64,000 nucleotides of DNA, taken from contig NZ_NXIF01000007.1 in assembly GCF_002837275.1 (NCBI RefSeq), positions 1-64,000 on the forward strand, written 5' to 3'. Below the pieces are notes generated by a model. The model had not been told where the DNA came from. It did not search any database and worked only from the letters and a program-made list of their open reading frames with translations. This stretch comes from Malaciobacter halophilus. Its GTDB lineage: Bacteria; Campylobacterota; Campylobacteria; Campylobacterales; Arcobacteraceae. This document shows, in pieces, positions 22,280-47,960 of this stretch; the stretch's first letter is position 1, and every line of letters begins with the position of its first letter. The position numbers and the translations under genes are program-made.

Positions 22280-23365
22280 TTGAAAATACTCGTAACAGGA
22301 ACAGCAGGCTTTATAGGTTATCATCTTGCCAAAAAACTTTTGCAAAGAGGTGATGAGGTAGTAGGCTTTGATAATATCAATGACTATTATGATCAAAACT
22401 TAAAATATGCAAGATTAAATGAATTAGGAATAAGCAAAGAAGATTTAAAAGACAATGTGATTGTATATTCAAAAACTTATCCAAACCATAAATTCATCAA
22501 AGCAAATCTAGAAGATACTCAAACGATAAACTATCTTTTTGAAACTGAAAAGTTTGATGCCGTATGTAACCTTGCAGCGCAAGCGGGAGTTAGATACTCA
22601 CTTGAAAATCCCCATGCTTATGTTCAAAGTAATGTAGTGGGATTTTTAAATATTCTTGAAGCTTGTAGAAATTACAATGTTAAAAATTTATCTTTTGCAA
22701 GTAGTTCATCTGTGTATGGATTAAATAAATCACAACCTTTTAAAACTACAGACCATACTGCTCATCCTGTATCTCTTTATGCTGCTACAAAAAAATCAAA
22801 TGAAATGATGGCACATTCTTATGCACATCTTTATGGTATATGTACTACAGGTCTTCGTTTTTTTACTGTTTATGGTCCATATGGAAGACCAGATATGGCA
22901 CCTATGCTTTTTGCAAATGCAATATTAAATGATAAAGAAATAAAAGTTTTTAATCATGGTGATATGAGTAGAGACTTTACTTATATAGATGATATAGTAA
23001 ATGGAGTTATAAAAGTAATAGATAATCCAGCTAAGCCAATAGAAACTTCAAATTCATTGGAGGTTGATTTTGAGAAAAATCTTCCATTGGATAAGTCAAC
23101 AGCTTCTTATAGAATATATAATATAGGAAATAATGCTCCTGTAAAACTAATGGACTTTATAAATACTTTAGAAAAAGCAATAGGCAAAGAAGCTAAAAAG
23201 AACTTTTTACCAATGCAAGATGGAGATGTACAAAGTACTTATGCAGATGTAAGTGATTTGATAAATGATTTTGAGTATAAACCAAATACAATACTTGAAA
23301 ATGGTATTAAAAAGTTTGTAAAATGGTATAAAGAATTTTATGAAATTAAAGGTAAATATAAATGA
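22280..23365 (+). CDS. UDP-glucuronate 4-epimerase-like NAD-dependent epimerase
   Basis: A 361-aa extended short-chain dehydrogenase. The Rossmann motif is VTGTAGFIGYHLAKKL, followed by FDNINDYYDQNLKYARL, a stretch typical of UDP-GlcA 4-epimerases (GAE, LpsL, Cap1J types). The active site has SSSSVYG and Y167-x3-K171 in SLYAATKK. FFTVYGPYGRPDMAPMLF is also characteristic. It should form UDP-galacturonate from the Ugd product, although it could act on the diacetamido-uronate made by the next genes. The start is TTG. Its stop overlaps the next gene by four bases (ATGA). Confidence 0.85.
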   Translation: MKILVTGTAGFIGYHLAKKLLQRGDEVVGFDNINDYYDQNLKYARLNELGISKEDLKDNVIVYSKTYPNHKFIKANLEDTQTINYLFETEKFDAVCNLAAQAGVRYSLENPHAYVQSNVVGFLNILEACRNYNVKNLSFASSSSVYGLNKSQPFKTTDHTAHPVSLYAATKKSNEMMAHSYAHLYGICTTGLRFFTVYGPYGRPDMAPMLFANAILNDKEIKVFNHGDMSRDFTYIDDIVNGVIKVIDNPAKPIETSNSLEVDFEKNLPLDKSTASYRIYNIGNNAPVKLMDFINTLEKAIGKEAKKNFLPMQDGDVQSTYADVSDLINDFEYKPNTILENGIKKFVKWYKEFYEIKGKYK

Positions 23366-24630
23366 ATAATAAAATATGTATAATTGGACTTGGCTATGTG
23401 GGACTTCCATTGGCACATGCGTTCTCTTCAAAATATGAAGTAGTTGGTTATGATATAAATGAGGCAAGAATAAATGAACTGAAAAATGGTTTTGATAGAA
23501 CTCAAGAACTAAATGAAATACAAGTAAATGAGTGTATTAAAAATAATATGAAGTTTACACTTGATACAAAAGATATAGAAAATTGCAATATTTATATAGT
23601 AACAGTACCTACTCCAATTAATAGTGATAATGAGCCAAATCTTAGTCCTATTATTAGTTCGACAAAAACAGTTGGTAATATACTTAAAAAAGATGATATA
23701 GTAATTTATGAATCTACTGTTTATCCAGGTGTCACAGAAGAAGTTTGTGTACCAATTCTTGAAGAAGAATCAGATTTGGTTTTTAATAAAGATTTTTATT
23801 GTGGGTATTCTCCAGAAAGAATAAATCCAGGTGATAAAGAGCATACTGTAACTAAAATTCTTAAAATAACATCAGGTAGTACTCCTGAAGTTGCAAAAAA
23901 AGTTGATAAATTATATAAGTCAATTATTAAAGCTGGTACACATCTAGCTCCTACTATAAAAGTAGCAGAAGCTGCAAAAGTTATAGAGAATACTCAAAGA
24001 GATGTAAATATAGCACTCATAAATGAACTTGCTATGATATTTGATAGAATGAATATAAATACAAAAGATGTAATAGAAGCAGCTGCAACAAAATGGAATT
24101 TTATTAAACTTTTCCCTGGATTAGTTGGTGGTCATTGCATAGGAGTTGATCCTTATTACTTGACTTATAAAGCACAAAGTTTAGGATATATGCCAAACTT
24201 AATTCTTGGAGCAAGACAAATAAATAATAGTATGAGTAAACTAATCGCAGATAAAGCTGTTAAATACATGGTAAAAAATGATAAAAAATTAAATGGCGCA
24301 AATGTATTGATTTTAGGTGTAACTTTTAAGGAAAATTGTCCAGATATGAGAAACTCAAAAGTACTTGATATTATAGATGAAATTAAAGAGTTTGAGTGCA
24401 ATATAGAAGTATTTGATCCTTGGGTAGACAAAAGTGATAGAGAAACTAAACATTTAAATTTTTTAGATTCATTACCTTTAAATAGTAATAAATATGACTC
24501 TATAATTGTTGCAGTAGGGCATGAACAATTTAAAACTATATCAACAGAAGATTATAGCTCTATGTCAAATAAAGAAGCTATAGTTATTGATGTAAAAGGT
24601 ATAGTAGAAAAACCAACATGGAGACTATAA
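23362..24630 (+). CDS. UDP-N-acetylhexosamine 6-dehydrogenase (WbpA/TviB/WbpO type)
   Basis: A 422-aa nucleotide-sugar dehydrogenase distinct from Ugd. The Rossmann motif is IGLGYVGLPLAHAF, TVPTPI and YESTVYPGVTEE follow, FYCGYSPERINPGD is the signature of the UDP-HexNAc branch, and the catalytic Cys is C259 in VGGHCIGVDPYYL. It is followed directly by wbpB-, wbpD- and wbpE-like genes. This is the WbpA context, in which UDP-GlcNAc is oxidised to UDP-GlcNAc uronate as the first step to 2,3-diacetamido-2,3-dideoxyuronic acid. A UDP-GalNAc substrate cannot be excluded. Confidence 0.88.
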   Translation: MNNKICIIGLGYVGLPLAHAFSSKYEVVGYDINEARINELKNGFDRTQELNEIQVNECIKNNMKFTLDTKDIENCNIYIVTVPTPINSDNEPNLSPIISSTKTVGNILKKDDIVIYESTVYPGVTEEVCVPILEEESDLVFNKDFYCGYSPERINPGDKEHTVTKILKITSGSTPEVAKKVDKLYKSIIKAGTHLAPTIKVAEAAKVIENTQRDVNIALINELAMIFDRMNINTKDVIEAAATKWNFIKLFPGLVGGHCIGVDPYYLTYKAQSLGYMPNLILGARQINNSMSKLIADKAVKYMVKNDKKLNGANVLILGVTFKENCPDMRNSKVLDIIDEIKEFECNIEVFDPWVDKSDRETKHLNFLDSLPLNSNKYDSIIVAVGHEQFKTISTEDYSSMSNKEAIVIDVKGIVEKPTWRL

Positions 24631-25593
24631 ATGAATAAAAAGAATTTTGCACTTATCGGTGCATCAGGTTATATCGCACCGAGACATATGAAAGCTATTA
24701 CTGAAACAGGAAATGAACTAGTAGCAGCACTAGATCCTTATGATGGAATAGGAATTATGGATTCTCATTTTCCACAAGCTTCTTTTTTTACAGAATTTGA
24801 AAGATTTGATAGATTTATTGATAAATACCATAGGGAAAATGAAAAGAGAATAGAATACATTGGAATTACAACACCAAATTATTTACATGATGCACATATT
24901 AGATTCGCACTTAGAAGTGGGGCACATGCTATTTGTGAAAAACCACTGGTATTAAATCCACATAATATTGATCAACTAAAAATAATAGAACAAGAAACAG
25001 GTAAAAAAGTAAATAATATCTTGCAACTTAGACTTCATCCTTCAATTATAGCTTTAAAAGAAAGAGTTCAAAAAGAGTTAGAACAAAAACCAAATAAGAT
25101 ATATGATATTGACTTGACATATCTTACAAGTAGAGGTAAATGGTACTTTGTATCATGGAAAGGCGATGAGAATAAATCAGGTGGAATTGCTTCGAATATT
25201 GGAGTACATTTCTATGATATGCTTTCATGGATTTTTGGTGAAGTAAAAGAGAATATTGTTCACTTAAAACAGCCAGATGCAAACGCAGGATTATTAAGAC
25301 TTAAAAATGCAAATGTAAGATGGTTTTTATCTGTAAATTACGATTATATTCCAGAAGAAGTAAAAGCTCAAGGGCAAACTACATTTAGATCAATCACTGT
25401 TGAAGGTGAAGAAATAGAGTTTTCTGGCGGTTTCAAAGACTTGCATACTAGATCTTATGAAGAGATATTAGCAGGGAATGGCTTTGGATTAGAAGAAGCC
25501 TATGGGTCAATAGAAATAGTGTCTCAAATAAGAAAAATGACACCTATTGGATTAAAAGATGATTATCATCCATTTTGTAAAAAGATTATATAA
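24631..25593 (+). CDS. wbpB: UDP-HexNAc-uronate 3-dehydrogenase (WbpB type, Gfo/Idh/MocA)
   Basis: A 320-aa Gfo/Idh/MocA oxidoreductase. The N-terminal ALIGASGYIAPRHMKAI and LDPYDGIGIMDSHFPQASFF closely recall WbpB/WlbA. YIGITTPNYLHDAHIRFAL and the signature ICEKPLVLNP (EKP) follow, and the C-terminal half is the family's alpha/beta domain. In Pseudomonas and Bordetella this enzyme oxidises C3 of UDP-GlcNAcA with bound NAD, giving the keto sugar for transamination by WbpE. The gene starts directly after the wbpA-like stop and shares one base with wbpD. Confidence 0.9.
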   Translation: MNKKNFALIGASGYIAPRHMKAITETGNELVAALDPYDGIGIMDSHFPQASFFTEFERFDRFIDKYHRENEKRIEYIGITTPNYLHDAHIRFALRSGAHAICEKPLVLNPHNIDQLKIIEQETGKKVNNILQLRLHPSIIALKERVQKELEQKPNKIYDIDLTYLTSRGKWYFVSWKGDENKSGGIASNIGVHFYDMLSWIFGEVKENIVHLKQPDANAGLLRLKNANVRWFLSVNYDYIPEEVKAQGQTTFRSITVEGEEIEFSGGFKDLHTRSYEEILAGNGFGLEEAYGSIEIVSQIRKMTPIGLKDDYHPFCKKII

Positions 25594-26171
25594 TGGTTAA
25601 GTATTTTGCACACGAATCATCGTATATTGATGAAAATGTAAATATAGGAGATGGTACAAAAATTTGGCATTTTTCACATGTATTATCAGGGACTACAATA
25701 GGAGAAAATTGTAGTTTCGGTCAAAACTGTGTTGTTGGACCAAAAGTAAATATTGGAAATGGTGTCAAAGTTCAGAATAATATCTCTATTTATGAAGGTG
25801 TTGAAGTAGAAGATGATGTTTTTTTAGGACCTTCTATGGTATTTACAAATGTTACAAATCCAAGAGCATTTATAGTTAGACGTGAAGAATTTAAAATAAC
25901 ACTTCTTAAAAAAGGTTGCTCTATTGGTGCAAATGCAACAGTAGTATGTGGTAATACAATTGGTAGATATGCTTTAGTAGGAGCAGGTTCTGTAATAAAT
26001 AAAGATGTAAAAGATTTTGCTTTAATGGTAGGAGTACCTGCAAGGCAAATTGGATGGGTATCAGTTGCAGGAAATAGATTGGAATTTGATGAAAATAACA
26101 TCGCTATAGATTCATTTGATAATACAAAATATAAACTTCAAAATGATGAAGTAGTTTTAATTGAAGAATAA
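25593..26171 (+). CDS. wbpD: UDP-2-acetamido-3-amino-uronate N-acetyltransferase (WbpD type)
   Basis: A 192-aa left-handed beta-helix acetyltransferase with hexapeptide repeats throughout (IGDGTKIWHFSHVLSGTTIG, FGQNCVVGPKVNIGNG and onward to GAGSVINKDVKDFALMVG). KIWHFSHV and NPRAFIVRR are typical of WbpD/WlbB. It acetylates the 3-amino group produced by WbpE, giving UDP-2,3-diacetamido-2,3-dideoxyglucuronate. The gene order A-B-D-E equals that of the Pseudomonas aeruginosa wbp set. Confidence 0.9.
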   Translation: MVKYFAHESSYIDENVNIGDGTKIWHFSHVLSGTTIGENCSFGQNCVVGPKVNIGNGVKVQNNISIYEGVEVEDDVFLGPSMVFTNVTNPRAFIVRREEFKITLLKKGCSIGANATVVCGNTIGRYALVGAGSVINKDVKDFALMVGVPARQIGWVSVAGNRLEFDENNIAIDSFDNTKYKLQNDEVVLIEE

Positions 26172-26180
26172 GGAAAAATA

Positions 26181-27266
26181 GTGAAAATAGATTTCGCAAA
26201 ACTACAAGACCAGTATCAATTATACAAAACAGAAATAGATGAAGCAATTCATGTTGTTTTAGATAAGTCTAATTATATAATGGGAGAAGAAGTTAGTCAA
26301 TTGGAAGAGTCACTTCAAGAGTTTACCGGTGCTAAACATGCAATCACATGTAGTTCTGGTACAGATGCTTTACTCCTTGCTATGATGGCTCTTGATATTA
26401 AACCAGGTGATGAAGTAATTACTACTCCATTTACATTCATTGCAACAGCTGAGACAATTGCATTTCTAGGTGCAACTCCTGTTTTTGTAGATATCGATGA
26501 AAAGACTTATAATATAAATCCAGATTTAATAGAAGCTAAAATTACTTCTAAAACAAAAGCAATTATTCCAGTATCTCTTTATGGACAACCAGCAGATATG
26601 CAAAAAATTCAAGATATTGCAAATAAACATAATCTAAAAGTGATAATTGATGGAGCACAAAGTTTTGGTTCTACTTTTAATAATATGACAGATTCTGTAT
26701 GGGGTGATATTTCAACTACGTCTTTTTTCCCTGCTAAACCACTTGGATGTTTTGGTGATGGAGGAGCAGTATTTACTGATAATGAAGAAATAGCAGAAAA
26801 AATAAAATCATTAAGAGTTCATGGACAAAGCAAAAGGTATCATCATAAGTATATAGGTATGGGTGGAAGACTTGATACCATTCAAGCTACAATTCTAAAT
26901 GTAAAATTAAAATATTATAAAAAAGATTTAGCTTTAAGACAAGAAGTTGCAAGTAAATATACAAAAGCTTTATCTGGAAAAGATTTGATTTTGCCTTTTG
27001 TTGCTAAAAATGTAACTTCTGCTTGGGCACAATACTCAGTTAGAGTAAAAAATAGAGATAATATACAATCCTCTTTAAAAGAGAATGGCATACCGACAGC
27101 AGTGCATTATCCTATGCCTTTACATCTTCAGGAATGTTTTGAATACCTAGGATATAAAAAAGGTGATTTTCCTATTTCTGAAATAGTTTCAGAAGAGATT
27201 ATGAGTTTACCTATGAACCCTTATTTAACAGATGAGGAAATTAAGTACATATCTAATAGATTATAA
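26181..27266 (+). CDS. wbpE: UDP-2-acetamido-3-keto-uronate aminotransferase (WbpE type)
   Basis: A 361-aa DegT/DnrJ/EryC1/StrS PLP aminotransferase that installs the 3-amino group using glutamate. ITCSSGTDALLLAMMALDIK binds the PLP phosphate, VIIDGAQSFGSTF holds the PLP Asp, and the Schiff-base lysine is K186 in SFFPAKPLGCFGDGGA. HYPMPLHLQECF is typical near the C-terminus. The start is GTG, preceded by AAGGAAA. No WbpI-type 2-epimerase follows; the next genes are sulfate-activation genes. Confidence 0.9.
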   Translation: MKIDFAKLQDQYQLYKTEIDEAIHVVLDKSNYIMGEEVSQLEESLQEFTGAKHAITCSSGTDALLLAMMALDIKPGDEVITTPFTFIATAETIAFLGATPVFVDIDEKTYNINPDLIEAKITSKTKAIIPVSLYGQPADMQKIQDIANKHNLKVIIDGAQSFGSTFNNMTDSVWGDISTTSFFPAKPLGCFGDGGAVFTDNEEIAEKIKSLRVHGQSKRYHHKYIGMGGRLDTIQATILNVKLKYYKKDLALRQEVASKYTKALSGKDLILPFVAKNVTSAWAQYSVRVKNRDNIQSSLKENGIPTAVHYPMPLHLQECFEYLGYKKGDFPISEIVSEEIMSLPMNPYLTDEEIKYISNRL

Positions 27267-33051: not shown

Positions 33052-33946
33052 TATTATTCCAAATTTATTTATTATCGGAGCACCAAAAGCAGGAACAACT
33101 GCATTGGCAAATAATTTAGCACAACACAAAAAAATATATATATCTGAATTGAAAGAACCTAGATATTTTGATGCACATACTTTTTATGATAATAAAAGTG
33201 ATTATTTGATAAAAAATATTGAAGAATATTTAGAATTATTTAATAACTTAGAAGCAAAAAAATCTAAATATAGATTAGATGCAAGTGTATTTAATATGTA
33301 TAGTGAAATGTCCATAAAGAATATTTTACAACTATCTCCAGATGCTAAATTTATTATTATTTTAAGAGAACCAGTGTCAGCATCAGTTTCTATGCATAGT
33401 CAAAGATTGGCATACAGTGATCCAAAAATGAGAGAATTGTCTGAAGATTTTAAAGAATGTTGGAAAATGCTTAAAGGAAGAAAGCAAGGGTTGTACTATC
33501 CAAAAGCTTGTCAAAATAAAATATTATTTAGGTATGATTTATTATATTCATATGAATTATATATTCCTCAGATTCAAAACTTAATAGAAAGTAAGAATTT
33601 ATTTATAGGTTTTTATGAGGACTTTAAAAATTCACCAGATAAATTTTATTATGATATTTTTAATTTTTTAAATATTGAGCATATAAAATTACAAAATAGA
33701 AAGCATAATAAAAGTTTAATTTTAAAAAAATCAATTTTTTTAGAAGTACTTGAGATTATTTCATTAAAAAGTTTTAAAATTAGAGAAAAAATTGGCTTGA
33801 CAGGTGGATTGTTATATCAATTTAAACAGTGGTTTATTAATAGAAAAAAGATTGCTCCTAAAGTTTTGGACAATAGTGATTTGAATGAAGTAGAGGAGTT
33901 CTTTGAAAAAACTAATACTTATTTAAGAGAACTAAAAGAAAACTAA
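33044..33946 (+). CDS. PAPS-dependent sulfotransferase 1
   Basis: A 300-aa sulfotransferase-fold protein. The 5'-phosphosulfate loop is LFIIGAPKAGTTALANNL (from residue 8), and the 3'-phosphate motif is KFIIILREPVSASVSMHSQR (about 102-121), with the conserved Ser. No signal peptide is seen, so it acts in the cytoplasm on a nucleotide- or lipid-linked sugar. It lies just after the PAPS genes and flippase and is probably used to sulfate the repeat unit. The acceptor is unknown. A 55-base gap, the widest inside the operon, follows. Confidence 0.85.
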   Translation: MNSIIPNLFIIGAPKAGTTALANNLAQHKKIYISELKEPRYFDAHTFYDNKSDYLIKNIEEYLELFNNLEAKKSKYRLDASVFNMYSEMSIKNILQLSPDAKFIIILREPVSASVSMHSQRLAYSDPKMRELSEDFKECWKMLKGRKQGLYYPKACQNKILFRYDLLYSYELYIPQIQNLIESKNLFIGFYEDFKNSPDKFYYDIFNFLNIEHIKLQNRKHNKSLILKKSIFLEVLEIISLKSFKIREKIGLTGGLLYQFKQWFINRKKIAPKVLDNSDLNEVEEFFEKTNTYLRELKEN

Positions 33947-34001
33947 TAATTGATTAACAATGATGTGAAAGTTAGCATATTGATAAATAAAAGGAAATGA
34001 T

Positions 34002-34982
34002 TTGATACACAAATATTTAAATTTAAAAAAGTATTTATCTTTTATAATGAGACAATTTGTAAATTTTTTATCACCATTTATTAAGAAATGGGAAGATAGG
34101 TTTATCAAAAAATACTTATTAAAACCACTAAAATATCAACCTGTCTTTATTATTGGAGCTCCAAGAACTGGCAGTACAATTCTGTACCAAGTAATTACAA
34201 ACCAACTAGATATACTGTATGTGAATAATTTAGTATGTAAATTTTATAAAAATTTATTTTTTGGTTTTTGGTTAAGTGATAAATTGTTTAAACAAAAAGC
34301 ACATGATTGTTTTAAGTCGGATCATGGAGATACTTCTACTTGTGGATTAAACTCTCCTAGTGAGTGTGGAGGGTTTTGGTACAAGTGGCTTCGTGATGAT
34401 AAACACTTTATAGATTATGATGAGATAACCGATGAAATTGTACATCAGATAAGAGATGAATTAACAGCGGTTATAAACTACTTTGATAAGCCTTTAATTT
34501 TTAAAAATCTAAATGCGGGACAGAGAATGAGATTGTTACACAAATGTTTTCCAGAGGCAAAATTTATATTTATAAAAAGAGAGCCACTCTTTACTGCACA
34601 GTCTATCTTAAAAGCAAAAAGAAAAGAAGGCTTGAATGATAATGATTTTTGGTCAATAATGCCATATAATGTAGAAGAGCTGAAAAAACTAAGCACTTAT
34701 GAACAGATAGTTAAGCAAATATATTTTTTAGAAAAACAGATATTGGAAGATAGTAAATTATTTGATAAAAAAAGCTTACTATCGATAGATTATAAAGAGC
34801 TTGGAGATGATTTTGAAAACACAGTAAAAAAGTGTCAAAAGTTTATAAGTACCGATGAAAAAACAGAGTTTAAAAAAGCAGAAATAAAATTAAGAGAAAA
34901 AGTATCATTAAAGGAAGATGAAATAAAATCGTTTAGTCAAGAAATAGAAAAGTTAGATTGGGAGAACTACAGTGACAAATAA
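34002..34982 (+). CDS. PAPS-dependent sulfotransferase 2
   Basis: A 326-aa protein unlike the first sulfotransferase except at the cofactor motifs. The PAPS loop is VFIIGAPRTGSTILYQVI (about 48-65), and the 3'-phosphate motif is KFIFIKREPLFTAQSILKAK (about 187-206). The first 45 residues are basic and amphipathic and could touch the membrane. Insertions with four cysteines (KAHDCF, TSTCGL, SECGGF and others) lie between the motifs. The start is TTG after AAAGGAAATGA. Two different sulfotransferases suggest two sulfation sites, or one enzyme inactive or of other specificity. Confidence 0.82.
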   Translation: MIHKYLNLKKYLSFIMRQFVNFLSPFIKKWEDRFIKKYLLKPLKYQPVFIIGAPRTGSTILYQVITNQLDILYVNNLVCKFYKNLFFGFWLSDKLFKQKAHDCFKSDHGDTSTCGLNSPSECGGFWYKWLRDDKHFIDYDEITDEIVHQIRDELTAVINYFDKPLIFKNLNAGQRMRLLHKCFPEAKFIFIKREPLFTAQSILKAKRKEGLNDNDFWSIMPYNVEELKKLSTYEQIVKQIYFLEKQILEDSKLFDKKSLLSIDYKELGDDFENTVKKCQKFISTDEKTEFKKAEIKLREKVSLKEDEIKSFSQEIEKLDWENYSDK

Positions 34983-35922
34983 AGAAAAGTACAGAAAGTT
35001 TTGTGAAAAAGAAAAAGATATTCCTATTTTTAGTAAAGATTGGTGGTTAGATAGTATTTGTGGTGAAAATGCGTGGGATGTTTTGCTCGTAGAAAAAGGG
35101 GGAGAAATATTTGCATCATTACCTATTTATAGGAAAAGTGAAATTATATTTGAGATACTAACAATGCCACAACTTACACAAACTATGGGAATATATATCA
35201 ATTATCCATCCAAACAAAAATATTATAAAAGACTTTCTTGGGAAAAGGACATGATGACTGCACTTATTCAAAAAATACCGAAGTTTGACTACTTTACACA
35301 AAATTTTGATAAAAAAGTTACAAATTGGTTAGCTTTTTATTGGGAAGGATTTGAACAAACTACATTTTATACTTATGTTATAGAAAATATTACGCTAGAA
35401 GATTTAGAAAAAAATCTTGAAACTGATATAAGAAGAAGAAGAAGAAAAGCTAATGAAGTTGGTGTAGAAGTAGTAGAAGGTGATGATGTAGAAAAATTTT
35501 ATGAACTAAACATGATGACATTTAAAAGACAAGGAAGAAACATACCTTATAGTTTAGATTTTGTCAAAAATCTGTATAAGGCTTGTAGAGAAAATAATGC
35601 AGTAAAAATGTATTTTGCCAAATATGAAGACAATGTTATATCAGCAAATTTTTTAGTATATGATGACAATACTGTTTATTATCTTATGGGTGGTATTCAT
35701 CCTGATTTTAAAGACTTAGGGGGAATGGATGTTGTATTATACGAAAGTATAAAGTTTGCTCTTGAAAACAATAAGACTTTTGATTTTGAAGGTAGTATGA
35801 TAGAGAGTATTGAAAAGTATTTCAGAAGTTTTGGAGCGATTCAGAAGCCATATTTTAACATAACAAAGACTAATTCTAAGTTACTTAAAATAAGAAATTT
35901 TATTAGTGATTTGAAAAAATGA
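34972..35922 (+). CDS. GNAT/FemAB-like acyltransferase
   Basis: A 316-aa soluble protein resembling the BioF2/FemAB-type GNAT domain (Acetyltransf_6). The N-terminal segment SKDWWLDSICGENAWDVLLV and LPIYRK are typical. The core has DIRRRRRKANEVGVEVVEGD, FYELNMMTFKRQGRNIPYSL and an acceptor region AKYEDNVISANFLVYDDNTV then YYLMGG. Such proteins acylate or aminoacylate sugars or peptidoglycan. Here an N- or O-acylation of the glycan is likely. The start is GTG, overlapping the sulfotransferase by 11 bases, and the end overlaps the next gene by four. Confidence 0.72.
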   Translation: MTNKEKYRKFCEKEKDIPIFSKDWWLDSICGENAWDVLLVEKGGEIFASLPIYRKSEIIFEILTMPQLTQTMGIYINYPSKQKYYKRLSWEKDMMTALIQKIPKFDYFTQNFDKKVTNWLAFYWEGFEQTTFYTYVIENITLEDLEKNLETDIRRRRRKANEVGVEVVEGDDVEKFYELNMMTFKRQGRNIPYSLDFVKNLYKACRENNAVKMYFAKYEDNVISANFLVYDDNTVYYLMGGIHPDFKDLGGMDVVLYESIKFALENNKTFDFEGSMIESIEKYFRSFGAIQKPYFNITKTNSKLLKIRNFISDLKK

Positions 35923-37172
35923 TAAAAATAACTATACCAAACAATAACATTTGTGAGCGAAAATATATACTAGATATCATATTTGATGAGTTTTTAGGAT
36001 TAGATTTTAAAGTAATACAGAATGATGATTGCAAAAATTGGATAATAGAGTTACCAAATAAACAAGTCTTGACTATCAAAGATACTTTTTTTAATAAATA
36101 CCCAAAAGATTTAGACTATCTAAAACTAGAAAATATACCTCAAAAAATAGAAGAGCTAGATATCTTTGCAGCTAGTTTTTTTATGCTCACAAGGTGGGAA
36201 GAATATGTAAATAAAGCTAGAGACTCTCACAACAGATTTCCTGCAACTGAAAGCTTGGCTTACAAACAAGGTTTTTTAGATAGACCTATAGTTAATGAAT
36301 ATTTGGAAGAGTTTAAAAAAAATCTTTTAGAACTTGATAGTAATTTACAATTCAAATCAAGATGTTATCAAACATTTTTGACTCATGATATTGATTATAT
36401 TCAAAAATATTCAAATGTAAACAACTGTGTTAGAGAAATAGCTGGTGATATAATAAAACGAAAAAGCTTACTATTGGCAGTAAAAAATCTTATACGACAA
36501 GTGAAAGTATTTTTAGGTGTGGCTAAAGATCCTTTTGATACATTTGATTACCTGATGGATGTAAGTGAAAAGGTTGGTATAAAAACGCATTTTTTCTTTA
36601 TGGGAAAAGGAGAAACGGAGTATGACAATCATTATGACTCATCTAGTATCAAAATCAAAAGTACTATTTCAAATATAAAAAATAGAGGTCATAATATAGG
36701 CATTCATCCTACATACAATGCTTACAATGATTCTATGCAATTAAAGAATGAAAAAAATGAATTGGAAAATAATCTAAATACAAAAATCGTTTTTGGTAGA
36801 GAACATTATTTGAGATTTGAAGTGCCAACTACTTGGCAAATTTGGGAAGATAACCTAATGCAATGGGATAGCACATGCGGATATGCTGATAAAGAGGGCT
36901 TTAGATGTGGTGTGTGTTATGAATATAGTGTTTTCAATATACTAACAAGAGAAAAACTAAAATTAAAAGAAAAGCCACTAATAGTAATGGAATGTACAAT
37001 AATAGATAAGTCTAAAATGAAAGGTGATTACAAAGCAGAAGTTCTAAATAGAATGAATGACTTAAAAGAAAAATGTAAACAATATAATGGTGACTTTGTA
37101 CTGCTTTGGCATAATTGTCACTTAGAGGATAAAGAAGATAGAATAGTTTTTGAGGAAGTTACCTCTTGTTAG
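35919..37172 (+). CDS. polysaccharide deacetylase-like protein
   Basis: A 417-aa protein. The N-terminal 140 residues resemble the domain often found ahead of NodB-like modules (DUF7033: ELDIFAASFFMLTRWEEY, then ESLAYKQGFLDRPIVNEYL). The C-terminal half has metal-site motifs of carbohydrate esterase family 4: FLTHDIDYIQKY (Asp) and RGHNIGIHPTYNAY (His), plus REHYLRFEVPTTW. No signal peptide is apparent, so it would act in the cytoplasm. It may remove an N-acetyl group from a lipid-linked sugar, possibly for re-acylation by the overlapping GNAT gene upstream. That pairing is inference. Confidence 0.75.
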   Translation: MIKITIPNNNICERKYILDIIFDEFLGLDFKVIQNDDCKNWIIELPNKQVLTIKDTFFNKYPKDLDYLKLENIPQKIEELDIFAASFFMLTRWEEYVNKARDSHNRFPATESLAYKQGFLDRPIVNEYLEEFKKNLLELDSNLQFKSRCYQTFLTHDIDYIQKYSNVNNCVREIAGDIIKRKSLLLAVKNLIRQVKVFLGVAKDPFDTFDYLMDVSEKVGIKTHFFFMGKGETEYDNHYDSSSIKIKSTISNIKNRGHNIGIHPTYNAYNDSMQLKNEKNELENNLNTKIVFGREHYLRFEVPTTWQIWEDNLMQWDSTCGYADKEGFRCGVCYEYSVFNILTREKLKLKEKPLIVMECTIIDKSKMKGDYKAEVLNRMNDLKEKCKQYNGDFVLLWHNCHLEDKEDRIVFEEVTSC

Positions 37173-39670: not shown

Positions 39671-41509
39671 ATGTGTGGTATATTTGGTCAGATTTCAAAA
39701 ATAAAAGTAAATAAAGAAAATTTAAATAGTTTAGTAAAGCATTCAGAACAAAGAGGTATTGACTCGAGTGGATTGATATATTATGAAGATAGCGTTTATA
39801 AAATAGGAAGAGCTGATTATAATATTGAAAAACTGTTAAAAAAAGAAAAACTTTTTAATTCTAAAATAGTATTAGGGCATAGTAGACTTATAACTAATGG
39901 ATTAGGAGATAATCAGCCAGTAGTAAGAAATAATATCTGTGCAATACATAATGGAATAATTGTGAATGAAAAAGATATTTGGGAAAAATTGAGCGTTGAA
40001 CGAAAGTATCAAATTGATTCTGAAGTTATAGTTGCGATTTCAGAAGAACATCTCCTTCAAAATCACGAAGTTTCTGAGCTTCCAAATAAAATCCTTTCTC
40101 TTTGTAGAGGGGTGGTTGCTTGTGCATTAGTTTTACCAGAGTATGGAAAGCTATTACTTTTTTCTAATAATGGAAGTTTATATGTTGGATATATAGGAGA
40201 TGATATATATTTTGCTTCAGAAAGATATGCTTTAGATCAGATACAATGTATAGATGTGCATCAAATAAAAGAAGAAAGTTTAATTATTGATATTCCTAAA
40301 GCAGAAAAAAAGTTACATATAACAGATGAAAAAATAAGAAATGAAAATCTTATTCCAGAATTTCAATTTAATAAAAATGAAGAAAAATTATTAGAATTTA
40401 AAAGTTTTAAAGAAGTTAACTTAAAAAGATGTACTAAATGTATTTTACCTGAAACAATGCCTTTTATTAAATTTGATAATGAAGGTGTATGTAATTATTG
40501 TCACAATTATAAAAAAAGAAATAAACCAAAACCTAAAGAAGAGTTATTCAAACTTGTAGAGCCTTATAGAAAGCCAGGTAAAGAACTTGATTGTATTGTT
40601 CCTTTTTCAGGAGGTAGAGATAGTTGTTATGGATTACATTTGATAGTGAAAGAATTAGAAATGAAACCAGTAACTTATACTTATGACTGGGGAATGGTAA
40701 CTGATCTTGGAAGAAGAAATATCTCTCAAATGTGTGGAGATATGGGAGTTGAAAATATCATAGTTGCAGCAGATATCTCTCAAAAAAGAAAAAATATTAA
40801 GATGAACTTGGAAGCTTGGCTTAAATCTCCTCACTTAGGTATGATGGCAATGCTTACGGCTGGAGATAAGCATTTTTTCAGGTATGTAGAAGAGATAAAA
40901 AAACAAACTGGAATAAATCTTAATCTTTGGGGAGTTAATCCTTTGGAGCAAACACACTTCAAAACAGGCTTCTTAGGTATAAAACCAGACTTTGAAGAAG
41001 ATAAGGTTTATACTAATGGCGTAATGAAACAACTCAGATATCACTCTAAAAGATTTAAGGCTATGCTTGAAAGCCCAGGATATTTTAATAGTTCTTTATG
41101 GGATACTCTTTCTGGGGAGTATTATAGAAGTTTTATGCAAAAAGAAGATTATTATCACATTTTTGATTATTGGACATGGGAAGAAAATCTTTTAAATAAT
41201 ACATTAATAAATCAATATGATTGGGAGACAGCAATAGATACCAGTACTACTTGGAGAATAGGCGATGGTACAGCAGGTTTTTATAACTATGTTTATTATA
41301 CAGTCGCAGGGTTTACTGAACATGATACATTTAGATCTAATCAAATAAGAGAAGGACAACTTACAAGAGAAAAAGCTCTTGAACTTGTAGAAGATGAAAA
41401 TCAACCAAGATATCAAAATATAAGATGGTATTTAGATACACTGGGAATGGATTTTGAAGAGGTTATTAAAATTGTAAATTCTATACCAAAACTTTATAAT
41501 GAAAACTAG
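39671..41509 (+). CDS. class-II glutaminase fused to a WbpG/PseA-type sugar amidotransferase
   Basis: A 612-aa two-domain protein. Residues 2-210 are an Ntn-type glutamine amidohydrolase: MCGIFGQISK with nucleophile C2, HSEQRGIDSSGLIYY, LGHSRLITNG and IHNGIIVNE, as in GlmS and asparagine synthase. Residues 250-600 match N-acetyl sugar amidotransferases: two CxxC pairs (C254/C257, C274/C277), probably zinc-binding, a PP-loop SGGRDS (313-318), and NLWGVNPLEQTHFKTGF. In P. aeruginosa WbpG needs separate HisH/HisF-like partners. Here ammonia would come from the attached glutaminase. The likely product is an acetamidino or uronamide group on the diacetamido sugar. Confidence 0.85.
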   Translation: MCGIFGQISKIKVNKENLNSLVKHSEQRGIDSSGLIYYEDSVYKIGRADYNIEKLLKKEKLFNSKIVLGHSRLITNGLGDNQPVVRNNICAIHNGIIVNEKDIWEKLSVERKYQIDSEVIVAISEEHLLQNHEVSELPNKILSLCRGVVACALVLPEYGKLLLFSNNGSLYVGYIGDDIYFASERYALDQIQCIDVHQIKEESLIIDIPKAEKKLHITDEKIRNENLIPEFQFNKNEEKLLEFKSFKEVNLKRCTKCILPETMPFIKFDNEGVCNYCHNYKKRNKPKPKEELFKLVEPYRKPGKELDCIVPFSGGRDSCYGLHLIVKELEMKPVTYTYDWGMVTDLGRRNISQMCGDMGVENIIVAADISQKRKNIKMNLEAWLKSPHLGMMAMLTAGDKHFFRYVEEIKKQTGINLNLWGVNPLEQTHFKTGFLGIKPDFEEDKVYTNGVMKQLRYHSKRFKAMLESPGYFNSSLWDTLSGEYYRSFMQKEDYYHIFDYWTWEENLLNNTLINQYDWETAIDTSTTWRIGDGTAGFYNYVYYTVAGFTEHDTFRSNQIREGQLTREKALELVEDENQPRYQNIRWYLDTLGMDFEEVIKIVNSIPKLYNEN

Positions 41510-41512
41510 AAT

Positions 41513-42742
41513 ATGAATATACTTTGTATCTCAAAATATGCTAGTCCTCCAAATTATAGTAAAATGCCTGCAAGGCTTTTTGTATTAGCAAAAGAATTTA
41601 TAAAATTAGGTTATAAGACCACTTTAATTACATCTGATTCAAATCATTTCTCAACTTATCCAGATACAGATGAAATTTATAATTTTGAAACAGTTGAAAA
41701 TGTTCCTTTATGTTGGGTTAAAACTAAAAAATATATAAAAACTGCTTCAATTGATAGAGTACTGAGTTGGTTTGACTTTGAACGAAAACTTTTTAAAATG
41801 GATTTAAATAAGATTGATAAACCTGATGTAGTTTTAGTTTCTTCTTTATCCATATTTTCTATAATTTATGGATATTATCTGAAAAGAAAGTTTAACTCTT
41901 TTTTAGTTTTTGAGATACGAGATATATGGCCACTTACAATGACGGAAGAGGGTGGTTTTTCAAAGTGGCATCCATTAGTTTTATTGATTGGCTTTATTGA
42001 AAAATTTGGATACAAAAAAGCTGATTTAGTAGTAGGTACAATGCCTAGACTTGATTTACATGTAAAAAATATAATAGGATATGAAAAACCTTTTCATTGT
42101 TCTCCTTTAGGTTTTGATCCAGTTAATTATAAAGAAGAAAAAATTGATAATAATCCTTTTGATAGGGTGTTCCCCAAAAATAAAGTTATAGTAGGTTATG
42201 CTGGAAGTATGGGGATAACAAATGCATTAGAGCCATTTATAAAAACAATAAAGCTTTTAAAGGATAATGAGAATGTTCATTTTATGTTAGTTGGAAGTGG
42301 TGATTTAAAAGTTAACTTTGAAGAGCAACTAAAAGATTGTACAAATGTAACTTTTTTACCTCGTATTGGACAAAATGAAGTGAAGTATTTTTTACAGAAA
42401 TGTGATATTTTATATCTATCTACAAAAGATTCTAAAGTTTGGGAGTATGGTCAATCTATGAATAAAGTTGTTGAATATATGTTAGCATCAAAGCCAATTA
42501 TTGCATCATATACAGGCTATCCATCTATGATAAATGAAGCTAATTGTGGTTACTTTGAAAATACATCAAATGCTAATGATTTAAAAGAAAAGATTTTAAG
42601 TATAGTTAATTTGGATGAAGAAGAAAGAAAAAAATTTGGAGAAAATGGTAAAAAGTGGATTTATGAAAACAGGCAATATTCACAATTATCAAAAGAATAC
42701 ATAGATAAAATAAATGAATTAAGGTTTACTGAAAATGCTTAA
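41513..42742 (+). CDS. glycosyltransferase family 4 (WbuB-like)
   Basis: A 409-aa GT-B enzyme starting [20 protein letters not shown], with [58 protein letters not shown] and [20 protein letters not shown], as in WbuB-like enzymes that act next to WbpG/FnlC-type modification genes. It would transfer a modified amino or uronic sugar to the growing unit. It starts three bases after the amidotransferase stop and overlaps pglC by eight bases. Confidence 0.85.
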
Positions 42743-43328
42743 ATCACTATTTGACAAAATCCTAGCTCTATTTTTAATAATTATTTTTTCACCTATTTAT
42801 ATAGTGGTGAGTTTACTTATACTTTGGAAGATGGGAAGTCCTATACTTTTTAGACAAAAGCGACCAGGATATAAAGAAAAGATATTTGGTATATATAAAT
42901 TTAGAACTATGACAAATGAAAAAGATAAAGAGGGGAATTTGCTTCCAGATGAGCAAAGACTAGTAGGAGTTGGAAAGTTTATTAGAAGTACAAGTTTAGA
43001 TGAACTTCCTCAGTTGTTTAATGTACTTAAGGGAGAGATGAGCTTTGTTGGTCCTAGACCATTACTTATTGAATATCTAAAACTTTACACTGATAAACAA
43101 AAAAGAAGGCACGATGTAAAGCCAGGTATCACAGGATGGGCTCAAGTAAATGGAAGAAATGCTATTTCTTGGGAACAAAAATTTGATTATGATGTTTGGT
43201 ATGTTGATAATCAATCTTTTCTATTAGATATGAAAATACTTTGGTTAACTTTTTTAAAAGTTGTAAAAAGAAGTGATATTAGTTCTTCTAGCAGTGCTAC
43301 AATGGAAAAATTTACTGGGACAAAGTAA
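42735..43328 (+). CDS. pglC: initiating phosphoglycosyltransferase (PglC-like)
   Basis: A 197-aa monotopic phosphoglycosyltransferase. The reentrant N-terminal helix is [20 protein letters not shown], followed by [40 protein letters not shown] (catalytic Asp-Glu), PRPLL and [15 protein letters not shown]. It transfers a sugar-1-phosphate to undecaprenyl phosphate and so starts the unit. The small size and the adjoining PglD/E/F-like genes point to a UDP-diacylated bacillosamine substrate, as for C. jejuni PglC (200 aa). Confidence 0.92.
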
Positions 43329-43329
43329 G

Positions 43330-43983
43330 ATGAAAGAGTTATATATTTATGGAGCAAGTGGCCATGGTCTTGTAGTTGCAGATATTGCAAGAGATAATGG
43401 TTACGAAAATATTATATTCATTGATGATGGAAAAAACAAATATCCAACTTTTGAAGATATTAAAAAAACTAATAATATTCCTATTGCTTTTGGAATAGGT
43501 AGTAATGCTATAAGAGCAAAACTTTTTGAAAAAGTTCATAATAGTGGATTTAAGATAATAAGTTTAATTCATCCAAGTAGCATAATATCTTCAAGTGCAA
43601 CTATAGGTAAAGGAACAGTTATCATGCCAAATGTAGTAGTAAATGCAAAAGCCACTATAGGTGAAGGCGCAATATTAAATACTTCTTGTGTTATTGAGCA
43701 TGAGTGTGTGATAGATGATTTTGTACATATTTCACCAAATGTAGCACTTGCAGGAGATGTAAGAGTGGATAAATATACCCATATTGGAATAGGGTCTAAT
43801 GTGATACAAGGTATAATAATAGGAAAAAATGTGATAGTAGGAGGTGGAAGTATGGTTATACGAAATATTGATGATAATCAAAAAGTTGTAGGTGTACCAG
43901 TACGGCTGATATCTTCAACTTCAAATAAAAAAGGGGGGGTAAATAATAGTATTTATTTCCCATCTGTTAGGAGAGCTTCATGA
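43330..43983 (+). CDS. pglD: PglD/NeuD-family sugar N-acyltransferase 1
   Basis: A 217-aa left-handed beta-helix acyltransferase. An N-terminal UDP-sugar-binding Rossmann domain (LYIYGASGHGLVVADIARDN) is followed by hexapeptide repeats (SATIGKGTVIMPNVVVNAKA, IGEGAILNTSCVIEHECVID with the catalytic His, HIGIGSNVIQGIIIGKN). PglD acetylates the C4 amine of UDP-4-amino-4,6-dideoxy-GlcNAc. I start it at the ATG at 43330; an upstream in-frame start would lie within pglC. The last 20 residues are an unusual tail encoded across a G7 tract (43933-43939). Confidence 0.87.
   Translation: MKELYIYGASGHGLVVADIARDNGYENIIFIDDGKNKYPTFEDIKKTNNIPIAFGIGSNAIRAKLFEKVHNSGFKIISLIHPSSIISSSATIGKGTVIMPNVVVNAKATIGEGAILNTSCVIEHECVIDDFVHISPNVALAGDVRVDKYTHIGIGSNVIQGIIIGKNVIVGGGSMVIRNIDDNQKVVGVPVRLISSTSNKKGGVNNSIYFPSVRRAS
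43933..43939 (+). repeat. homopolymeric G7 tract in the 3' end of the pglD-like gene
   Basis: Seven consecutive Gs, preceded by a run of As, in very AT-rich coding DNA. A one-base gain or loss brings in a TAA within a few codons, removing about 13 residues and ending translation about 40 bases before the next gene, whose ATG overlaps the present stop. Poly-G tracts are the classical phase-variation sites of Campylobacter. Confidence 0.6.
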
Positions 43984-44639
43984 GTACAATTTATGGTATT
44001 TATGGGGCGAGTGGATTTGGAAAAGAAGTTTTGCCATTAGTCAAAGAGCAGTTTGGAAATAAATCTAAGATTGTTTTTGTAGATGATGGAGATGTTCCAA
44101 ATGAACTTTTTGGATGTGATATTTTTAATTTTGAGCAATTTGTAAATCTTGAAGGTCAAAAAAAAGTTACGATAGCTATATCAAATAGTAAAATAAGAGA
44201 AAAACTTACTTTGAAGTGTCTTGAGAAAAGTATTGAAGTTTTTGATGTAAAAGCTTCAAACAGTGTTGTGCTAGAAGATGTAAAAATGGGTGGAGGCTCG
44301 ATTCTTTGTCCTTTTGTTACACTCACTTCTGATATAACTATTGGTAAGAGTTTTCAAGTAAATATCTATAGCTATGTAGCTCATGATTGTGTTATAGGTG
44401 ACTATGTTACATTTGCACCAGCTGTAAAGTGTAATGGTAATGTTTATATAGGTGACCATGCTTACATAGGTACTGGAGCTATTATCCACCAAGGAAAACC
44501 TAATCGACCTTTGAAAATTGGTAAAGGTGCAGTAATAGCAGCAGGTGCGGTTGTGACTAAAAGTGTACCAGATGGTATGACTGTATTTGGTAGTCCAGCT
44601 ATTGAATTTACCAAAGAAAACATAAAGAGGAGATCATAA
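43980..44639 (+). CDS. NeuD-family sugar N-acyltransferase 2
   Basis: A 219-aa second acyltransferase of the same fold but clearly different sequence. IYGIYGASGFGKEVLPLVKE is the Rossmann start. DVKMGGGSILCPFVTLTSDI, YSYVAHDCVIGDYVTFAPAV (catalytic His) and HAYIGTGAIIHQGKPNRPLK form the helix. It overlaps pglD by four bases and the MaoC gene by one. Two such enzymes in a row suggest that two amines, or two alternative acyl groups, are used. The MaoC neighbour hints that this one may use a hydroxyacyl-CoA. Confidence 0.82.
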   Translation: MSTIYGIYGASGFGKEVLPLVKEQFGNKSKIVFVDDGDVPNELFGCDIFNFEQFVNLEGQKKVTIAISNSKIREKLTLKCLEKSIEVFDVKASNSVVLEDVKMGGGSILCPFVTLTSDITIGKSFQVNIYSYVAHDCVIGDYVTFAPAVKCNGNVYIGDHAYIGTGAIIHQGKPNRPLKIGKGAVIAAGAVVTKSVPDGMTVFGSPAIEFTKENIKRRS

Positions 44640-45076
44640 TGTCTAACTCTTTAGTTTTTAATCAAGTACCAATAGAAGAGATACAAGAAGAGATGGAAGT
44701 AAGTTATAGTCAAACTATAACAGATGCAGATGTCAAAGCATTTGCAGGAATATCTGGAGATAGAAACCCTGTACATATGGATGATGAGTATGCCCAGAAT
44801 TCAAGATTTAAAAAACGAATAGCTCATGGTATGATGTCAGCATCATACTTTTCAGCACTTTTTGGTACAAAAATACCAGGTGAGGGGTGTGTATATGTTG
44901 CTCAAAGTTTGCAGTTTAAAAGACCTGTGTATCTTGGAGATACAGTTGTAGCAACTGTAACAGTTACAAAAGTAGATTTAGATAAAAGAAGAGTATTTTT
45001 TAGAACAACTTGTAAAGTAAAAAATAAAATAGTAATAGATGGAGAAGCGGAGCTTTATGTTCCAAAAGATAAATAA
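44639..45076 (+). CDS. MaoC-family (R)-enoyl-CoA hydratase-like protein
   Basis: A 145-aa single hot-dog domain. The hydratase-2 motif is complete: AFAGISGDRNPVHMDDEYA (catalytic Asp and His), then FKKRIAHGMMSASYFSALFG. Family members hydrate trans-2-enoyl-CoA to (R)-3-hydroxyacyl-CoA. Its position between two sugar acyltransferases and the 4-aminotransferase suggests that it supplies a hydroxyacyl, perhaps 3-hydroxybutyryl, group for N-acylation. Such groups are known on bacterial 4-amino sugars. The supply role is inference. Confidence 0.85.
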   Translation: MSNSLVFNQVPIEEIQEEMEVSYSQTITDADVKAFAGISGDRNPVHMDDEYAQNSRFKKRIAHGMMSASYFSALFGTKIPGEGCVYVAQSLQFKRPVYLGDTVVATVTVTKVDLDKRRVFFRTTCKVKNKIVIDGEAELYVPKDK

Positions 45077-45097
45077 AGTAGATAGGATAAAAGTCAA

Positions 45098-46204
45098 GTG
45101 AATAAACGAATTTTTTTAAGTGCTCCACATATGAGTGGAAATGAATTAAAGTATATTGAAAAAGTATTTGAAAGCAATTATATAGCACCACTTGGTGAAT
45201 ATGTAAATAAATTTGAGGACAGTATAAAGAATTATACAGGTACAAAAAATGCTCTTGCAGTGACTTCTGGGACAGCTGCTATTCATTTAGCTCTTAGAGT
45301 TTTAGGAATTGATAAGGGAGATGATGTATTAGCTTCTACTTTTACTTTTATAGGTTCAGTAAATGCTATACTTTATCAAGGTGCAAATCCAGTTTTTATA
45401 GATAGTGATAAAGAGAGTTGGAATTTATCACCAAAACTTCTAAATAAATACTTATGCGAATGTGATAAAAAACCAAAAGCTTTAATAGTAACTCATCTAT
45501 ATGGGCAGTGTGCTGACATAGAAAAAATAGCTAATATTTGTAATCTTCATGGAGTATATCTAATTGAAGATGCAGCTGAAAGTTTAGGTGCTACTTATAA
45601 TGGTCGTCATACAGGAACATTTGGAGATTTTGGAATATATAGTTTCAATGGAAATAAAATACTTACTACAAGTGGTGGGGGAATGTTAGTATCTCCAAAT
45701 AAAGATTGGATTGACAAAGCGAAGTTTTACTCTACACAGGCAAAAGAACCATTTATACATTACGAGCACGAAGAGTATGGATATAATTATCGTATGTCAA
45801 ATGTTTTAGCAGCTATTGGTGTAGGACAAATGGAAGTTATAGAAGAGCGTGTACAGAAAAAAAGAGAAATATTTAAGTGGTACAAAGAGTTTTTAAAAAA
45901 TTGTGATGAAGTTGAGTTTATGCCAGAACTTGACAATAGTAGAGGGAACAGGTGGCTTACCGCTATGATATTTAAAAAATCAGATTACAATGAAATTATG
46001 AAGGCTTTAGAACAAGTAAATGTAGAATCTAGACCTTTATGGAAACCTATGCATATGCAAAAATTATTTAAAAACAATAAGGCTATAGTTGATGGTACAA
46101 GTGAAGAGTTATTTAAAAAAGGGCTTTGTGTAGCAAGTAGTACAACAATGAATAAAGGTGATGTACAGATGATTTGTGATGTAATCAAAGATAATTTAAT
46201 TTGA
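45098..46204 (+). CDS. pglE: UDP-4-keto-6-deoxy-HexNAc aminotransferase (PglE-like)
   Basis: A 368-aa DegT/DnrJ/EryC1/StrS aminotransferase. FLSAPHMSGNELKYIEKVFE, ESNYIAPLGEYVNKFE and ALAVTSGTAAIHLALRVLGI are typical of the PglE group. LIEDAAESLGATYNGRHTGT holds the PLP Asp, and K187 in IYSFNGNKILTTSGGG is the Schiff-base lysine. It should aminate the 4-keto sugar made by PglF. The start is GTG after AGGATAAAAGTCAA. It is about the length of C. jejuni PglE and distinct from the WbpE-type enzyme at 26181. Confidence 0.88.
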   Translation: MNKRIFLSAPHMSGNELKYIEKVFESNYIAPLGEYVNKFEDSIKNYTGTKNALAVTSGTAAIHLALRVLGIDKGDDVLASTFTFIGSVNAILYQGANPVFIDSDKESWNLSPKLLNKYLCECDKKPKALIVTHLYGQCADIEKIANICNLHGVYLIEDAAESLGATYNGRHTGTFGDFGIYSFNGNKILTTSGGGMLVSPNKDWIDKAKFYSTQAKEPFIHYEHEEYGYNYRMSNVLAAIGVGQMEVIEERVQKKREIFKWYKEFLKNCDEVEFMPELDNSRGNRWLTAMIFKKSDYNEIMKALEQVNVESRPLWKPMHMQKLFKNNKAIVDGTSEELFKKGLCVASSTTMNKGDVQMICDVIKDNLI

Positions 46205-46229
46205 TATTAAATAAATATTAGGAAAATAT

Positions 46230-47960
46230 ATGCTAGGTCTTGATAAACGAATACTTAATTTTGTAGTGATTATTTGTCTTACAATTATCACTTTTTGGTG
46301 GACTTTTTTCATCTTTCATATGGAGTTTGAAATAAGATTTGTAATAGGCGTAATAGCTATAAGAATGCTAGCTTCTCTTTTGATTTTCAAAGATTTTAGT
46401 TTGAGTTGGTCAAAAGCTACTCAAAAAACTTTTATTATGAAAAGTATTGTTTATATTGTGGCTTTTTGTATCTACATGCCTTTTTATTATGGAGAGCTTA
46501 GATTTGCTTTTATGGCTTCTGAGCTTGCTTTTTATTTGTTTGTTATAAACTTTTCTATGTATTCTTATCATTATTTGATAAATAGAAGTAAGGTTGCAAA
46601 GACTAAAGAGTTGGTTATTTATGGTGCTGGAAAAGCAGGGATGAAGCTAGAAGAAGAGTTTAGAGAGAGTAAATATAAAGTAAAGTATTTTGTAGATGAT
46701 GATAAGATTTTACAAAAAAGATCAATCGATGCTATTCATATTTTATCTCAAGAAAAGCTAAAAGAAAGATTAGGTGATACTAAGTTAGATCTTTTAGTTA
46801 TTGCAATGCCTAGTGTTTCTAAAAAAAGAATTAAACAAATATATGATGAGGTTGGATACTACTTTAAACAAATAAGAATTCTTCCTGCACTAGAAGATAT
46901 TTTAGCTGAAAAAAACTTCTCAAAACAACTTAAAAATATATCTGTAGAAGATTTGCTTGCAAGGCATCCTCAAGATTTAGACAAAGAGAAAATAGAAAAC
47001 TTTATAAAAGGTAAAGTTGTATTAATTACTGGAGCTGGAGGTAGTATAGGAAGTGAGATAAGCAGGCAGTGTAAGAAGTTTAAAGCAAAACAGCTTATTT
47101 TACTTGATCATAGTGAATTTAATCTTTATAAAATAACAGAAGAGTTAAATGGCTCTGAGATTATACCAGTGATGCAAAATGTAAGAAATTATGATTTTAT
47201 AGAAAAAACTTTTAAGAAATATAAACCTCAAATAGTAATACATGCAGCTGCTTATAAGCATGTACCTTTAGTAGAAGATAATGTTTTAGAAGGTATTTCA
47301 AATAACATACTTGGAACAAAAAATTGTATAGATTTATCTATAAAATATAAAGTTGAAAAGTTTGTATTGATTTCAACAGATAAAGCTGTAAGACCTACAA
47401 ATGTTATGGGTACAACAAAACGAATTTGTGAACTATACGCACAAAATGCAAACACTGAACAAAACACAGAAATTGTTGCAGTTAGATTTGGAAATGTTCT
47501 TGGAAGTAGTGGAAGTGTAATACCAAAGTTTAAATCACAAATTGAAGCAGGAGGACCTATTACTGTAACACATCCAGATATTACAAGATATTTTATGCTT
47601 ATTCCTGAAGCTTGTGAGCTTGTACTTCAAGCTGCAAGTATTGGAAAGGGTGGAGAGATATTTATACTTGATATGGGAGAACCTGTAAAGATTGTAGATT
47701 TAGCTAAAAAGATGTGTGAATTAAGTGGACAAGAAGATATAAAAATAGAGTTTTGTGGATTAAGACCAGGTGAGAAACTTTATGAAGAGTTACTTATAAA
47801 TGATAGTGATAAAAAAACAGATTATGACTCAATTATGGTAGCAAAACCTACAAAATATGATATACATAAACTAAATAATGATATACAAGAACTTTTAGTT
47901 TGTGAAGATAAAATCAAGAAGTTAAAAGAGATAGTTCCAGAGTTTGAACACAATAAGTAA
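46230..47960 (+). CDS. pglF: membrane UDP-GlcNAc 4,6-dehydratase (PglF/WbpM type)
   Basis: A 576-aa enzyme. Four hydrophobic helices occupy about residues 9-112, a first Rossmann-like domain starts at LVIYGAGKAGMKLEEEFRES (about 130), and the catalytic short-chain dehydrogenase domain starts at VVLITGAGGSIGSEISRQ (about 265). It contains HAAAYKHVPLVEDN, the catalytic STDKAVRPTNVMGTTKR that replaces the usual YxxxK, and PGEKLYEELL. It makes the 4-keto-6-deoxy sugar that feeds PglE and PglD. It is the final gene of the operon and is followed by a six-element REP cluster. Confidence 0.93.
   Translation: MLGLDKRILNFVVIICLTIITFWWTFFIFHMEFEIRFVIGVIAIRMLASLLIFKDFSLSWSKATQKTFIMKSIVYIVAFCIYMPFYYGELRFAFMASELAFYLFVINFSMYSYHYLINRSKVAKTKELVIYGAGKAGMKLEEEFRESKYKVKYFVDDDKILQKRSIDAIHILSQEKLKERLGDTKLDLLVIAMPSVSKKRIKQIYDEVGYYFKQIRILPALEDILAEKNFSKQLKNISVEDLLARHPQDLDKEKIENFIKGKVVLITGAGGSIGSEISRQCKKFKAKQLILLDHSEFNLYKITEELNGSEIIPVMQNVRNYDFIEKTFKKYKPQIVIHAAAYKHVPLVEDNVLEGISNNILGTKNCIDLSIKYKVEKFVLISTDKAVRPTNVMGTTKRICELYAQNANTEQNTEIVAVRFGNVLGSSGSVIPKFKSQIEAGGPITVTHPDITRYFMLIPEACELVLQAASIGKGGEIFILDMGEPVKIVDLAKKMCELSGQEDIKIEFCGLRPGEKLYEELLINDSDKKTDYDSIMVAKPTKYDIHKLNNDIQELLVCEDKIKKLKEIVPEFEHNK

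Follow-up and report, generated by a model that had tools for sequence, protein, structure and literature searches.

FUS, the product of one open reading frame of Malaciobacter halophilus, joins a class II Ntn glutaminase to a synthetase of the N-acetyl-sugar amidotransferase (NASAT) type, NCBIfam family TIGR03573 (WbuX/NASAT). It is most likely a single-chain glutamine-dependent nucleotide-sugar amidotransferase converting UDP-GlcNAcA to UDP-GlcNAmA, a reading to which we assign a probability of about one half. The gene lies in the window, the whole stretch of 64,000 nucleotides that was analysed, and is laid out as follows.

39671..41509, forward strand: the fused glutaminase-synthetase gene FUS, 612 aa, starting MCGIFGQ (open reading frame, profile matches and homologues)
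39671..40300, forward strand: class II Ntn glutaminase domain, residues 1 to about 210, with the Cys2 nucleophile, HSR at 70-72, HNG at 93-95 and D116
40412..41506, forward strand: NASAT-type synthetase domain, residues 248-612, by the TIGR03573 match and the LpNASAT (8WEX) fold match
40430..40501, forward strand: zinc tetracysteine motif C254-x2-C257 ... G272-x-C274-x2-C277, invariant in 64 homologues
40607..40624, forward strand: PP-loop SGGRDS, residues 313-318 (ATP to AMP + PPi chemistry), invariant in 64 homologues

The MCGIFGQ start, the two CxxC pairs (254/257 and 274/277) and the SGGRDS loop, which an earlier note had read in this frame, are all present, and the joining of a class II glutaminase to a NASAT-type synthetase that it described is borne out by Pfam, NCBIfam and the fold of an AlphaFold model. 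Pfam places GATase_6/GATase_7 over cut-off at residues 61-189, the GlmS/PurF/AsnB-type glutaminase models of NCBIfam cover residues 1 to about 250, and the residues expected of a class II glutaminase (C2, R72, N94, G95 and D116) are invariant in all 64 sequences. In the second half C254, C257, G272, C274 and C277 follow CXXCXn[GN]XCXXC, the motif that defines the NASAT tetracysteine (PMC10607449), and SGGRDS conforms to the NASAT PP-loop SGGXDS. TIGR03573 matches residues 252-602 (E 5.7e-42) at 144.4 bits, below its curated cut-off of 203.2 bits, which was reached by no fusion in the 15 genomes searched.

The AlphaFold model, made from an alignment of 64 relatives (mean pLDDT 86, pTM 0.88), agrees with this division, though the underlying alignment is not very diverse and the placement of the domains relative to each other should not be over-read. 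A search of solved structures returned GlmS for the first half and the Legionella NASAT 8WEX for the second: the glutaminase has the Ntn fold of GlmS and PurF (Z 23.6), and residues 248-612 match 8WEX with Z 22.4 and rmsd 4.5 over 319 aligned residues, the next synthetase-only folds reaching only about 11 in Z. The likeness to GlmS is confined to the N-terminal glutaminase, as the GlmS model TIGR01135 stops at residue 249 and the C-terminal half is NASAT-type, not an isomerase. With WbpG, WbuX and LpNASAT FUS shares the zinc tetracysteine motif, the SGGxDS PP-loop and the overall synthetase fold, but it differs from them in carrying its own class II glutaminase and in falling below the family cut-off, and from WbpG-HisH2-HisF2 in that there the ammonia comes from HisF2 and the class I HisH2, which are subunits of their own. 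Identity between its C-terminal domain and the HisH/HisF-fed NASATs is no more than about 22%, and the domain branches separately from them, so that the description of it as the same synthetase as WbpG is not supported; we treat FUS as a sister branch to WbuX and not as WbuX itself. This low identity and the score below the TIGR03573 cut-off mean that a changed acceptor group is possible.

The same pair of domains, sought elsewhere as the earlier note had proposed, was found by a species-genome scan in 164 relatives across many phyla. The best 80 of these, which were fetched, come from Campylobacterota, Bacteroidota, several proteobacterial classes, Leptospiraceae, Planctomycetes and others, and the 64 that were aligned are 62-85% identical to FUS with every catalytic and motif position of both domains invariant. 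The count of 76 fusions is slightly low, as the greedy open reading frame picker did not recover the fusion at five loci (L033, L037, L048, L061 and L066), possibly owing to overlapping antisense frames. Because none of the motif residues varies among the 64 homologues, which span many phyla, and because the large majority of fetched loci have the gene at full length, the fusion is confirmed as genuine, the product of neither chance nor sequencing error. The invariance of every glutaminase catalytic residue also argues against a vestigial glutaminase uncoupled from the synthetase, which, together with action on another N-acetyl sugar or at a lipid-linked stage, we regard as very unlikely.

The fusion is abundant in genomes as a whole yet scarce close to the window: it occurs in 3 of 298 genomes in the Campylobacterota sample and, at full length, in one of six genomes searched in the genus of M. 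halophilus, the window's own. Since copies from Chryseobacterium are nevertheless 78% identical to FUS, frequent horizontal transfer is inferred. A more distant full-length relative (40% identity) lies on a Solidesulfovibrio plasmid (L099:9001-10965). Two of the 5,426 E. coli genomes have the fusion; they are from chicken isolates, and in them it is placed between galF and gnd (L084:17254-19083) and followed by the same family of glycosyltransferase as in the window. We found no O-antigen structure for either isolate that could give a clue to the product, and none that matched was found in papers on E. albertii O-antigens and on newly described E. coli serogroups. The E. coli relative is labelled ‘glucosamine 6-phosphate synthetase’ and the Solidesulfovibrio relative ‘7-cyano-7-deazaguanine synthase’, both probable misannotations and instances of the mislabelling under which the family is found.

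The genes of 80 loci and of the window were clustered, and 56 loci with good flanks were used for context counts. One glycosyltransferase family is present in 49 of the 56 and, counting all loci, directly follows the fusion in 46; a PglC-like sugar transferase accompanies the fusion in 40/56 and a PglF-like dehydratase in 27/56. No PglC-type transferase was seen in the E. coli fusion cluster, yet the partner glycosyltransferase family follows the fusion there too. This locus context, including the galF-gnd placement, identifies the fusion as an O-antigen or capsule enzyme. In the window the following genes of the surrounding cluster bear on its role.

41513..42742, forward strand: the gene immediately after FUS, a family 4 glycosyltransferase that constantly accompanies the fusion and is the candidate transferase of the FUS product
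23362..24630, forward strand: UDP-GlcNAc 6-dehydrogenase, TviB/WbpA-like (NF011729, 516 bits, cut-off 592), which probably supplies the uronic acid substrate
24631..27266, forward strand: WbpB-, WbpD- and WbpE-like genes by family matches (3-amino branch to 2,3-diacetamido uronic acid), probably serving a different sugar of the repeat from FUS
34972..37172, forward strand: FemAB/GNAT-like and VimE-like (DUF7033) genes (NF053580, 192 bits, below the cut-off of 440), with a possible role in N-acyl exchange on the diacetamido sugar
42735..47960, forward strand: PglC-like sugar transferase, two NeuD acetyltransferases, aminotransferase and PglF-like dehydratase by family matches, a block that recurs in many fusion loci and probably makes the initiating sugar QuiNAc4NAc

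From its residues and fold, the N-terminal domain would use Cys2 to hydrolyse glutamine and free ammonia, which would pass within the one chain to the synthetase site. There, by analogy with the NASAT and PP-loop families, the C-terminal zinc/PP-loop domain is expected to adenylate the acetamido oxygen of the sugar, and ammonia to displace the AMP; the most likely reaction would convert UDP-GlcNAcA to UDP-GlcNAmA, its 2-acetamido group becoming acetamidino. Amidation would precede glycosyl transfer, the neighbouring glycosyltransferase then attaching the modified sugar to the first, lipid-linked residue of the O-antigen or capsule repeat. The predicted product is thus probably a nitrogen-modified uronic acid. 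An amidine is favoured because the catalytic positions are invariant, the fold is that of a NASAT and the AsnB profile is confined to the glutaminase, and also because of a minimal case in Taylorella asinigenitalis and the gene content of the window genome. Counting against it, the available part of PMC10607449 gives no assayed activity for LpNASAT, and the glycosyltransferase of T. asinigenitalis is only about 32% identical to that of E. coli.

In T. asinigenitalis ATCC 700933 the fusion is the sole TIGR03573 match in the genome. A TviB equivalog (UDP-GlcNAc 6-dehydrogenase) is found there over cut-off, and searches of the genome gave no WbpB homologue, no AsnB match over cut-off and no HisF2. 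The small cluster holds one glycosyltransferase and QuiNAc4N-type genes, from which a disaccharide is expected. The O-polysaccharide of this species reportedly contains QuiNAc4NAc and 2-acetamidino-2-deoxy-glucuronic acid (GlcNAmA), which, if correct, points to conversion of UDP-GlcNAcA to UDP-GlcNAmA. A further genome from the same genus set, 1.7 Mb in size, carries WbpB with a single stop within the matched frame, and lacks the fusion. Both Taylorella O-antigen structures have been analysed, and they differ (PMC3250509); that of T. asinigenitalis is already published (ref. 24 of PMC3250509).

These genomes bear directly on the substrate proposed in the earlier note, which had the enzyme make an amidine or amide on a 2,3-diacetamido uronic acid (GlcNAc3NAcA/ManNAc3NAcA) in place of WbpG-HisH2-HisF2. 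WbpA/B/D/E-like genes do occur in the window cluster and in many other fusion loci, including the E. coli cluster, where they are joined by a WecB-type epimerase; but T. asinigenitalis has the fusion without WbpB, so a diacetamido substrate is not required, and we consider this reading improbable. The HisF-fed NASATs found near the fusion speak against it as well. A standalone NASAT and HisF2 lie near the fusion in 15 of the 56 loci, nearly all also with HisH, which rules out the fusion as an invariable replacement of the HisH/HisF system. Among 14 other genomes checked, six contain a standalone NASAT over cut-off beside the fusion, and this coexistence indicates that the two are not plain alternatives. 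The expected loss of hisH/hisF-like partners is not general. In the window genome no other TIGR03573 match rises beyond trace scores and no HisF2 (NF038364) exceeds cut-off, the scores being those of an ordinary HisF, and FUS is on this account self-contained there.

The main rival to an amidine product is a uronamide, which would arise if a GlcNAcA-type nucleotide sugar had its carboxylate at C6 turned into a carboxamide; amide and amidine would show one and the same mass shift (-0.98 Da). In AsnB-type enzymes one chain holds a PP-loop synthetase together with a class II glutaminase, and it is because one of them, WbpS, already acts in this way that the alternative must be weighed. WbpS makes the uronamide in the Wbp/Vim pathway of P. 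gingivalis, and WbpS, WbqG and PGN_1234 are amidotransferases related to AsnB that modify a uronic acid sugar in O-antigen and A-LPS pathways (PMC7468200). A one-polypeptide sugar amidotransferase, as put forward for this gene, is not new as a design, since WbpS and WbqG already achieve it with a synthetase of the AsnB type (PMC7468200). In favour of a uronamide, the WbpA/B/D/E-like, VimE-like and FemAB-like genes make the window cluster look like the Wbp/Vim pathway, no AsnB-type gene was found among the genes read around FUS, loci with both a HisH/HisF-fed NASAT and the fusion are most easily explained if the two modify different groups, and a UDP-GlcNAcA uronamide would also fit the genetics of T. 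asinigenitalis. Against this, the FUS synthetase is NASAT-like by both profile and fold, whereas TIGR01536 (AsnB) extends over residues 2-224 only, with a score of 45 bits (cut-off 267), and so ends at the glutaminase; AsnB-type genes are present in 17/56 fusion loci, where the uronamide task may often be filled already; and the structure reported for T. asinigenitalis contains an amidine. We judge a uronamide unlikely on balance. Membership of FUS in the WbpS group, suggested by its Wbp/Vim-like neighbours, is ruled out by the same limit of the AsnB profile. VimE-type genes occur in 14 of the 56 fusion loci and never together with a standalone NASAT (0/16 versus 14/40; Fisher p 0.0054, uncorrected, with 15 pairs tested).

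Both domains were known already, as were NASATs with separate HisH and HisF and one-chain class II sugar amidotransferases with an AsnB synthetase; of the glutaminase-NASAT fusion we found no description in the open full-text literature searched. The interpretation in the earlier note is in sum partly supported. We tentatively suggest an undescribed, phylum-crossing family of one-chain 2-acetamidino-glucuronic acid synthetases that work without HisH/HisF, travel with a dedicated glycosyltransferase and make this sugar much commoner on bacterial surfaces than is known. If true, this would give NASATs a second way to be fed ammonia, an Ntn glutaminase built into the synthetase polypeptide replacing the HisH/HisF complex, and would offer one protein in which to assay sugar amidine chemistry without a three-protein assembly. 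It would also correct the two annotations noted above and predict a sugar in the surface polysaccharides of strains without known structures.

Other genes of the window cluster may be noted. The two adjacent NeuD/PglD-type sugar acetyltransferases (43273-44639) both exceed the TIGR03570 cut-off, and a 145-residue frame within the sugar cluster (44639-45076) resembles, by reading, a MaoC-type dehydratase. Further upstream in the polysaccharide cluster (27299-34982) lie CysD, CysN, two adjacent CysC-type APS kinases and, again by reading, a CysQ-like phosphatase, with a Sulfotransfer_3 protein at 34002-34982 and a second sulfotransferase, by reading, at 33044-33946; the presence of these genes suggests that the glycan is sulfated.
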